Source: Nitrospirales bacterium
Lineage (GTDB): Bacteria > Nitrospirota > Nitrospiria > Nitrospirales > UBA8639
NCBI GenBank assembly: GCA_022825885.1
Contig: JAJDVY010000042.1
Span: forward strand, 1 to 64,000
Length of the DNA stretch: 64,000 nucleotides
Direction: 5' to 3'
Both the position numbers and the translations under genes were made by a program. The notes below the pieces were generated by a model. That model searched no databases. It was not told the origin of the DNA and saw only the letters and a list, made by a program, of their open reading frames with translations. Shown piece by piece: positions 38,790 to 41,084 of this stretch (the first letter of the stretch is position 1; each line of letters starts with the position of its first letter).

Positions 38790-39050
38790 ATGCGAATCAA
38801 TGCCAGACTGGATGATGTCCGCGCTGAAAAACTGAAACAACTCCGATCACTGACGCGACTCGGCGTAAGCGAAATCGTGAAGCGCGCCATAGATCTTTTG
38901 CATCGGCAACAGGCCGGGCGGTCACGGGAAAAACTCGATGCCTTGTTGTCGAGCGATTTCGTGGGTTGCGCCGAAGGCCCGGAAGACCTGGCCAGCCGAT
39001 ACAAGCAGTATCTGACACGGGATCTCGAAAACAAACATGGTGCTGACTGA
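38790..39050 (+). CDS. Ribbon-helix-helix antitoxin (CopG-like)
   Basis: An 86-residue protein whose first 45 residues form a ribbon-helix-helix (MRINARLDDVRAEKLKQL as the ribbon and first helix, then VSEIVKRAIDLLHRQQ). The C-terminal part (LLSSDFVGCAEGPEDLASRY) probably wraps the toxin. AGGAG precedes the ATG. It overlaps the PIN toxin gene by 14 bp. The promoter-operator lies 24-50 bp upstream. Confidence 0.85.
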   Translation: MRINARLDDVRAEKLKQLRSLTRLGVSEIVKRAIDLLHRQQAGRSREKLDALLSSDFVGCAEGPEDLASRYKQYLTRDLENKHGAD

Positions 39051-39456
39051 TACCGGTTACTGGCTTGCGTTGGCCAATGCCCGGGACCGCTGGCACGAGG
39101 CCGCGGTCGCGGCCAGCCAGCGCCTCGACGAAACGCTCGTCGTCACGTGGCCGGTCGTGACCGAAACCTGTTACCTCATGCTCACGCGACTGGGCGTGCA
39201 AGCGGAGTTGCGCTTCGTCGAGCAAGTGTCGAGAAACGTGAGTATTCATGAAATCGGGCAGGAACATCTCGGCGCGATCCGTGCGTTGATGGAACAATAC
39301 GCGCGTCTGCCCATGGATTTGGCAGACGCCTCGCTTGTCCTCGCGGCAACTCAGCTTGGGGAAGGCCGCATTCTCTCCACGGACCGCCGCGACTTCGATA
39401 CCTATCGCTGGAAGGACACGGAACTGTTTCACAACCTGTTGGAGAATTGGGATTGA
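39037..39456 (+). CDS. PIN-domain ribonuclease toxin (VapC-like)
   Basis: A 139-residue PIN domain. The acidic metal-binding residues are Asp5 (VLTDTGYW), Glu in VVTETCY, Asp in MDLADASLV and Asp in STDRRDF. VapC toxins cut tRNA or rRNA; the target here is unknown. It overlaps the antitoxin reading frame by 14 bp and is on the opposite strand to the neighbouring operons. Confidence 0.87.
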   Translation: MVLTDTGYWLALANARDRWHEAAVAASQRLDETLVVTWPVVTETCYLMLTRLGVQAELRFVEQVSRNVSIHEIGQEHLGAIRALMEQYARLPMDLADASLVLAATQLGEGRILSTDRRDFDTYRWKDTELFHNLLENWD

Positions 39457-39732: not shown

Positions 39733-40845
39733 TTACTCGAATCGTTCTGTCGCGCCATAAAAGGCACCTGTAAAAACCGCCTCACTGCCACCAGATGTTG
39801 CCATATACCCTGCATTTGTCCCGGCGACTGCCCGAGGACTTCCGTCTGCATCATTCACGTTGGAAAATCGGCCGCCCCAGGATCCCACTGAATCCGTAAT
39901 GTTTTGCGTGGGATTTGTTACCCTGACGCCAGATCCGGCAAATGTGCCACTTTGACTGATCGGCACAGACCCGAGATGAACGCGGTATAAGGTCGGGATA
40001 AGGTTTGGCTCAAAAGAGGTCTGGCCATTTGGGAAAAGCCCGGAAACATTATAAAAATCCACATTGTCAATCAGCCCATTAATACTATTTCTATCAAAAT
40101 TAGCAAAAAGTTGTATCCTACCCTGATATTGCCCGTTTTCAATCGTTCCCCTTGGCGCAATCTGGTCTACACCTGCAACCCCCACGTAAAGGCCGCCGGC
40201 CCGACCAGTGTATGTTGCTATCCCCGTCGCCGGAAGACTAAGCGCTACGTCTTCAAAGGCTGGTCCATCGACAAAGGCCCCAATTTCAAAATTCAACGCA
40301 TCATCGACATACATCCAATACCCACCAGCCACATAGTCCGTAAAATCAGCATTGGACCATTCAATCGCAACACCTACGGTCACATCACGACCAACAATCG
40401 TACCATCAATCGCAGGGCGATTTGCGACTAGATTTTCTGATGGGTCATACGTCACTACATCAAACACATTGTCACGATTGGTATCCAATGAAAACGAACT
40501 TCCATTGTGGCGACTTACATGAAGCGTAAATCGATTTCCAGTAAAACTGGTCTCGATACTTCGAACAGCAGCTAGACGAGGGCTGTAGAAATTTTGCGCA
40601 ACACTGCCAAAGACGGGGCCACTTGTACGGCGAATCAGATCTGCTAGCGACCCACCCAGTGGATTTGCTGTGGTTCCACCGCGCATTTGATTTCCACTGA
40701 AAGCTGTTTGTGGTGGCATTGGTATCATTGGCTCAGGCACCATTCCCATTGGGGCACCGCTACTGTTTCCTCCCCCTCCCCCGCCACACGCACTCAGCAA
40801 CAATCCAACTGTAAGCACCATTGCGCCAATGCGTAAAAACTCCAT
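39733..40845 (-). CDS. TbpB-like surface lipoprotein
   Basis: A 370-residue lipoprotein. The signal peptide ends in LLSAC (lipobox Cys20), followed by a Gly/Ser/Pro/Met-rich flexible linker. The C-terminal half has the transferrin-binding protein beta-barrel hallmarks: ATYTGRAGGLYVG, GRIQLFANFDRNSINGLID, SGTFAGSGV, GSWGGRF and VFTGAFYGA. Such barrels occur in surface lipoproteins that bind host or environmental ligands, often iron-related; the ligand here is unknown. AGGAGG lies seven bases before ATG 40845. A structured leader and promoter precede it. GC is lower than the surroundings. Confidence 0.82.
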   Translation of the reverse strand: MEFLRIGAMVLTVGLLLSACGGGGGGNSSGAPMGMVPEPMIPMPPQTAFSGNQMRGGTTANPLGGSLADLIRRTSGPVFGSVAQNFYSPRLAAVRSIETSFTGNRFTLHVSRHNGSSFSLDTNRDNVFDVVTYDPSENLVANRPAIDGTIVGRDVTVGVAIEWSNADFTDYVAGGYWMYVDDALNFEIGAFVDGPAFEDVALSLPATGIATYTGRAGGLYVGVAGVDQIAPRGTIENGQYQGRIQLFANFDRNSINGLIDNVDFYNVSGLFPNGQTSFEPNLIPTLYRVHLGSVPISQSGTFAGSGVRVTNPTQNITDSVGSWGGRFSNVNDADGSPRAVAGTNAGYMATSGGSEAVFTGAFYGATERFE

Positions 40846-40907
40846 GCTGTACCTCCTAAAAAGTGAAGATGGATAAAGCCACCCGACCAGACATAGGCCG
40901 GGCCGGC

Positions 40908-41047
40908 CCATCTCTCTAGGCGATACAGGTATCCCTGCGTATTTACTGGTTGGCGTATCCTCGGCTCCGACTGGGAGCGACCCAGGCTAACCGAGACAGT
41001 TCTTGTATTTCACAGGCAACCCGACAATGGGCAACCTAGAGAGATGG
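40908..41047 (-). ncRNA. Structured 5' leader RNA, class unknown
   Basis: Read on the minus strand, the 140-nt element opens with CCATCTCTCTAGG and closes with CCTAGAGAGATGG, a perfect 13-bp terminal stem. Inside are CTCGG/CCGAG enclosing CTGGG-TCGCT-CCCAG, and GATAC/GTATC enclosing CAGG-GATA-CCTG, giving a multi-branch junction. The predicted promoter at 41056-41084 would start the transcript right at the terminal stem. The end lies 62 nt before the lipoprotein ATG. CCATCTT at 40866-40872, just ahead of the ribosome-binding site, can pair with the 3' arm of the terminal stem, a possible switch. No known riboswitch class recognised. Confidence 0.6.
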
Positions 41048-41055
41048 ACAAAGAG

Positions 41056-41084
41056 AGATTAGTAGACAGCGAGAGGAGTGTCAA
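41056..41084 (-). promoter_or_regulatory. Consensus promoter of leader RNA and lipoprotein
   Basis: On the minus strand, TTGACA, 17-bp spacer, TAATCT. The start point would fall at about 41049, two bases before the terminal stem of the leader. Confidence 0.7.

Follow-up and report, generated by a model that had tools for sequence, protein, structure and literature searches.

A pseudoknotted leader RNA related to sRNA-Xcc1 as a candidate translational switch in sponge symbionts and other bacteria

A lipoprotein gene on the minus strand of a Nitrospirales contig (JAJDVY010000042.1; the window is the whole stretch analysed, positions 1 to 64,000, that is 64,000 nt) is preceded by a structured leader, which raises the question of what this RNA controls and to which family it belongs. 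An earlier note, made from the sequence alone, had proposed a structured cis-acting leader, and this proposal is now strongly supported by covariation, promoter position, the spacing to the Shine-Dalgarno (SD) sequence and start codon, and complementarity to the ribosome-binding site (RBS). Inspection of the minus-strand leader (41049-40846) reveals the promoter TTGACA-17-TAATCT, the perfect terminal stem, the hairpin CTCGG..CTGGG-TCGCT-CCCAG..CCGAG and the pre-SD strand CCATCTT that could compete for the terminal stem, all as described in that note, upstream of an ATG at 40845 (Table 1). A further hairpin, GATAC..CAGG-GATA-CCTG..GTATC, does not hold as a family feature: its CAGG belongs to helix P2, as the 3' strand opposite CCTGTG, and the CCTGTATC insertion is limited to a few copies. 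The window leader folds with z = -3.46, and none of 200 shuffled versions folds as well.

Table 1. Features of the leader and of its gene, in window coordinates
Feature	Coordinates	Strand	Basis or remark
Sigma70-like promoter TTGACA-N17-TAATCT	41056..41084	-	sequence; -10 position conserved in family
Predicted +1, at 5' end of P1a	~41049	-	
P1a, 5' arm of terminal stem TCCATCTCTCTAGG	41035..41048	-	compensatory changes throughout
PKa, 5' pseudoknot strand GTCGGGTTG	41017..41025	-	9 contiguous pairs with PKb
P2a CCTGTG	41011..41016	-	covaries with P2b
Core internal loop, conserved 5' half AAATACAAGA (family: GAAUACAANA)	41001..41010	-	near-invariant columns
P3a ACT	40998..41000	-	ACU/AGU to GCC/GGU exchange with P3b
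P4 hairpin, length variable, apical GGGUCGCUCCC	40960..40995	-	missing in some relatives
P3b (AGT) and conserved 3' core-loop half AAATA	40940..40948	-	conservation, covariation
P2b CGCAGG	40934..40939	-	covaries with P2a
Anti-RBS segment TGTATCGCCTAGAGAGATGG (junction J2/1 and P1b)	40908..40927	-	pairs with P1a or RBS
P1b, 3' arm of terminal stem CCTAGAGAGATGGG	40907..40920	-	compensatory changes
PKb, 3' pseudoknot strand CGGCCCGGC	40897..40905	-	pairing and covariation with PKa
Alternative hairpin P5, CCCGGCC (part of PKb) with GGTCGGG	40882..40902	-	by eye and predicted fold
Strand 3 CCATCTT, P1a mimic, pairs with P1b	40866..40872	-	family-wide P1b:leader complementarity excess
Shine-Dalgarno AGGAGG	40852..40857	-	sequence
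Regulated gene, 370-aa lipoprotein (LLSAC lipobox), weakly Slam/TbpB-like	39733..40845	-	

Covariation or statistics establish P1, P2, P3, the pseudoknot, the position of the promoter and the complementarity of P1b to the RBS. The host genome contains a second copy, and blastn recovered relatives from nine genomes of the genus, bin75 in GTDB, which corresponds to Ca. Nitrosymbion, nitrite oxidisers living in symbiosis chiefly with sponges (PMC11812461). A covariance model built from 15 copies (R1; R2 denotes a broader model) gave 45 matches spread over 13 of the 14 genus genomes; with it, the host genome shows six copies. In the 15 genus copies, 8 of the 14 pairs of the terminal stem show a compensatory change. 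Compensatory stem changes among homologues were the support that the earlier note had looked to, and among 22 sequences used in no model both-sided changes are found in 22 of 23 modelled pairs. For these held-out sequences the covariation of P1/P2/P3 is 0.919 against 0.247 when shuffled, with 95.5% of cells paired, in an alignment fitted to the model structure, which favours the score (slid controls gave 0.07-0.14); for 101 sequences the values are 0.575 and 0.174.

The comparison further reveals a 9-bp H-type pseudoknot that the earlier note had lacked (GUCGGGUUG with CGGCCCGGC in the window). This pairing, GUCGGGUCG with CGGCCCGGC, is part of neither model; it spans nine contiguous positions (0-8), each paired in 84-100% of cases, and stops sharply at both ends. 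Its last two positions covary: position 8 is G-C in 114, A-U in 21 and U-A in 15 copies, and position 7, in a later and mostly alphaproteobacterial set, is C-G in 12, G-C in 4 and U-A in 3. By eye and in the predicted fold, part of PKb can pair with the downstream GGTCGGG arm, and the resulting hairpin P5 would compete with the pseudoknot. P4 can shrink to a tetraloop, with short versions in L115, L122 and L151. An apical motif, GGGUNGCUCCC / GGGUUGAUCNCC, recurs on the variable P4 of most copies (window 40970-40985) and possibly makes a tertiary contact.

In 70% of 193 copies, compared to 8% for a control region, a sigma70-like -10 element (TA...T) falls within the 16 nt upstream of the RNA, and the median distance from PKb to the start codon, as assigned by a simple heuristic ORF/SD rule, is 47 nt. 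The earlier note had also envisaged two exclusive folds, one of them near the RBS, and these gain support copy by copy. In the window the anti-RBS segment forms a duplex of -22.7 kcal/mol with its own RBS (TGTATC-GCCTAGA-GAGATGG with CCATCTT..TTTAGG-A-GGTACA), covering the SD and the spacer. Among 192 copies, exact complementarity of P1b to its own leader reaches at least 8 nt in 19%, compared to 1.6% of swapped leaders, and at least 9 nt in 10.4%, compared to 0.4%; the duplex energies are likewise lower in own than in swapped pairs (p = 5e-10). The unpaired probability of the SD, computed for 145 copies, is 0.43 if the arm is held and 0.30 if the copy's own arm is free, compared to 0.40 if the arm of another copy takes its place; for the window copy it falls from 0.48 with the arm held to 0.12 with its own arm free. 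The SD-masking match is clear in many copies, though in fewer than half. Given that P1b is complementary to the RBS of its own leader, the aptamer-like fold and the RBS-masking fold are mutually exclusive copy by copy, and this masking, together with the fixed place of the -10 element 5' of P1, points to a switch acting on translation. Two features expected of a riboswitch are found here: a conserved aptamer-like domain in the 5' leader (by covariation, promoter and SD spacing) and an expression platform that, by computation, excludes it.

In total the family comprises well over 200 copies in at least ten phyla, most carriers being metagenome-assembled genomes (MAGs). When 84,980 species representatives were scanned for the exact core, 117 contigs matched, every one of them from a MAG, with record labels from Pseudomonadota, Nitrospirota, Binatota, Acidobacteriota, Gemmatimonadota, Rhodothermota, Latescibacterota, Verrucomicrobiota, Chloroflexota, Poribacteria and others. 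Where their source could be traced (MEX2, IP30, the long-read OX/OY and one Verrucomicrobiota assembly being excluded) these contigs come from sponges, and two from the coral Porites lutea. All 50 carrier genomes tested hold between 1 and 16 copies. R2 matches occur in 18/288 other Alphaproteobacteria, 2/273 Gammaproteobacteria, 11/246 Acidobacteriota and 22/63 genomes from the phylum of the carrier G253; none was seen in 197 genomes from the phylum of one Binatia MAG, nor in other genomes of the order (222 searched with R1, 219 with R2). One of the 18 alphaproteobacterial genomes is complete (2,753,527 bp), and by its size we take it to be the free-living SAR116 strain IMCC1322; the short leader of the SAR116 type is about 110 nt long. 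Given the R2 matches in these other alphaproteobacterial and further genomes, the RNA is not restricted to sponges; an exclusive association with sponges was considered and dropped, the exact-core pattern being biased. It is nevertheless strikingly common in sponge and coral symbionts. Viral contigs of IMG/VR gave no exact-core match, and phages gave no blastn match to the P1-bearing core. In a tree of the RNA the taxonomic labels are partly clustered, those of gammaproteobacteria not, and the 115 columns are too few to time transfers.

Several copies have unusual surroundings. In two loci divergent copies stand back to back, each facing its own gene (L087 3513-3905, L177 3595-3956), and in L130 (6376-6560) an apparent tandem, partly overlapping second copy lies just upstream of the element. 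One genome (G006) has near-identical copies with identical 5' flanks (C11 and C33, and contig ends of C29, C54 and C74), which indicates a recent duplication. A Binatia MAG contig, jk18x40bins.50 (L194 1-7305; L283 301-456), holds a 157-bit copy of the Nitrosymbion type; since that sample series also yielded a Nitrosymbion MAG, this contig may be a misbinned Nitrosymbion contig, and would otherwise represent a recent transfer.

For the most part the genes downstream of the RNA code for surface or secreted proteins: 76% encode a hydrophobic N-terminus and 32% a lipobox, compared to 37% and 4% of other genes. Their products include weakly TbpB/Slam-like lipoproteins, GT25/GT8/GT2 glycosyltransferases, ankyrin and LRR proteins, subtilases, metallopeptidases, CsgG-like proteins and outer-membrane barrels; in the host genome the regulon consists of five lipoproteins and one GT8 glycosyltransferase. 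The TbpB-like character first assigned to the window lipoprotein stands only in weak form: the protein has no Pfam match and its NCBIfam slam_lipo match (E 1.2e-4) is below the cut-off, while six regulon proteins match TbpB_B_D (best 2.4e-7). A search for relatives of solved structure found none, and the AlphaFold model of the window lipoprotein (mean pLDDT 52) is too poor for a fold search. A 37% identical homologue lies under the same RNA in an alphaproteobacterium, which is compatible with transfer of the RNA and the lipoprotein gene together. The lipoprotein gene adjoins a VapBC-like toxin-antitoxin pair (window 38790-39453, plus strand), two small adjacent ORFs whose products are ribbon-helix-helix-like (E 0.0018) and of the PIN-domain type (E 1e-8), respectively. 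Given that the same RNA also precedes glycosyltransferases, proteases, ankyrin/LRR and CsgG-like proteins, the earlier suggestion of a ligand or metal tied to the lipoprotein is unsupported; deducing a ligand from the lipoprotein was rejected for the same diversity of the regulon.

In light of these observations, we propose that the element is probably a cis-acting RNA that controls translation, most likely an orphan riboswitch combining a sensing domain and an expression platform. Transcription would start at P1a. In one predicted fold P1a pairs with P1b, P2 and P3 enclose the core loop (GAAUACAANA / GAAUA) and the 9-bp pseudoknot locks the 3' end. In the other, P1b and the preceding junction would pair with the leader over and just 5' of the SD, while a further copy of the PKa sequence downstream would take up part of PKb, and these pairings would hide the RBS. 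A small molecule might bind the core, favour the aptamer fold, free the RBS and turn translation on. We lean modestly towards this ligand-ON direction over the opposite sign. In the unconstrained minimum-energy fold of the window leader P1 is already formed (-90.1 kcal/mol, compared to -81.5 with P1a blocked, the pseudoknot not being counted), so that the RBS-hiding fold is not the default at equilibrium and a ligand-ON model needs kinetic or co-transcriptional competition; OFF logic, in which the trigger weakens P1, is possible.

The main alternative keeps the same cis switch and replaces the small molecule with an RNA-binding protein, temperature or translation itself as the trigger. The diverse regulon, which has no common pathway and points to no metabolite, counts against the ligand and for such a trigger, as does the lack of matches to known aptamers, and the core could be bound by a protein. 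We regard this alternative as rather unlikely, given that an internal loop kept near-invariant and a pseudoknot kept locked across at least ten phyla would sooner be expected of an aptamer, and that a cognate protein would need to be shared by all carrier phyla and phages. The candidate riboswitch also resembles known systems in its layout. The SAM-II and preQ1 classes are H-type pseudoknot riboswitches that control translation, and like them the window RNA has a pseudoknot adjoining the RBS and mutually exclusive folds; it differs in its core loop and P1/pseudoknot arrangement, with no Rfam sequence or topology match. The c-di-GMP riboswitch classes have a broad regulon of surface genes, and the likeness lies in several dispersed copies per genome before adhesins, lipoproteins and secreted proteins, again with no sequence relation.

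Whether the RNA is a new class, as the earlier note had proposed, receives a divided answer. The Infernal scan against Rfam that it had called for gave no match of the window copy to any known class even at E<=10, and our literature searches found no earlier description of this family as a riboswitch candidate; divergent members, in contrast, link it to sRNA-Xcc1 (RF02221), which Rfam types as 'sRNA'. Short alphaproteobacterial copies match RF02221 at the element in permissive Rfam scans, and the models form a chain from R1 through R2 and the alphaproteobacterial copies to RF02221 (E 6e-7), with R2 also finding the Aaphi23 leader at E 6e-5. The best P1-bearing relative, L295, scores 50.3 bits (E 6e-7, in a permissive scan of two loci), just below the RF02221 gathering score of 53 bits, and the window copy does not score with that model. 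Both branches share a homologous core (GAAUACAANAC..GGAAUA, AAUACAA), P2, P3 and the closing helix GUCGGG..CCCGAC, and both lie 5' of a gene with a segment between P2 and the closing helix that is complementary to the RBS. They differ in how this segment is held: in RF02221 it folds into a local hairpin that follows P2 and precedes the 3' closing strand, whereas in the window branch that hairpin is absent and the segment pairs with the 5' arm P1a, so that the closing helix becomes a pseudoknot. They differ also in regulon, phage antirepressors and SymE on the one side and surface proteins on the other. The best reading of this comparison is that the window RNA represents a new, longer, pseudoknotted and P1-bearing branch of a large superfamily entered in Rfam as sRNA-Xcc1.

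The context of RF02221 itself bears on how that superfamily works. Eleven phage or plasmid members score 62.9-86.1 bits, and seven of the nine with gene annotation immediately precede a gene or operon of the Ant, KilA-N, BRO or Bro-N antirepressor type, the other two a gene with no assigned function. A stretch like the Rac-SA53 leader is present in 159 of 5,426 E. coli genomes, with fuller matches at antirepressor genes. The loop of the P2/closing-helix hairpin is complementary to the RBS in all eight testable leaders, compared to 21% of swapped pairs (p = 2e-5). RF02221 leaders with such an RBS-complementary loop (L306-L308, L310-L313, L316) precede phage antirepressor-type genes (Ant, KilA-N, BRO), L308 being the Rac-type antA/antB leader. 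The placement of RF02221 leaders at such genes suggests that prophage induction is controlled at translation. In 13 Xanthomonas species sRNA-Xcc1 lies upstream of symE in integron cassettes (2025 survey, PMC12444791). From this gene context, the RBS complementarity and the symE placement, sRNA-Xcc1 looks like a cis-leader rather than a trans-acting RNA, a role that we did not find recognised in the literature. That the family acts in trans, with gene adjacency incidental, would accord with the 88-nt sRNA-Xcc1 that was cloned, seen on Northern blots and mapped at its ends (PMC2996969), and with the title of Chen et al. 2011, as cited in PMC12444791, which describes it as trans-acting. Such a reading is very improbable, given that in most copies an SD and a start codon follow at a short and constant distance, that the complementarity to the RBS is specific to each copy's own leader, and that Rfam members stand immediately upstream of antirepressor genes; processing or early termination of a leader may account for the short RNA.

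Two further readings concern the structure itself. The leader might simply stabilise the mRNA and never switch, consistent with a stable P1 fold being the minimum-energy fold, and this we hold to be hardly probable, as neither the conserved core loop nor the selected P1b:RBS complementarity is needed for stability. A mobile or recombination element, such as a MITE with 13-bp inverted repeats or an integron attC site, would fit the inverted-repeat ends, the multiple copies, the near-identical pairs such as C11 and C33 of G006 and the integron cassettes of sRNA-Xcc1 (PMC12444791), and is of negligible probability because the arms vary between copies yet stay complementary, with the promoter on one side and the SD/ATG on the other at fixed spacing.

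A cis-acting, RBS-masking switch that is probably an orphan riboswitch thus remains our preferred reading, and it unites unannotated leaders of many phyla into one testable candidate. It also implies that an RNA family listed in genome annotations as a virulence sRNA acting in trans would instead be a cis switch at ribosome-binding sites. More tentatively, and with a little more doubt than belief, sRNA-Xcc1 and the pseudoknotted branch could form a single ligand-sensing riboswitch superfamily answering one shared signal, at phage antirepressor genes and at genes for surface and secreted proteins of marine symbionts from many phyla. If one signal does drive both, its ligand would reveal a signal common to phages and host-associated bacteria.
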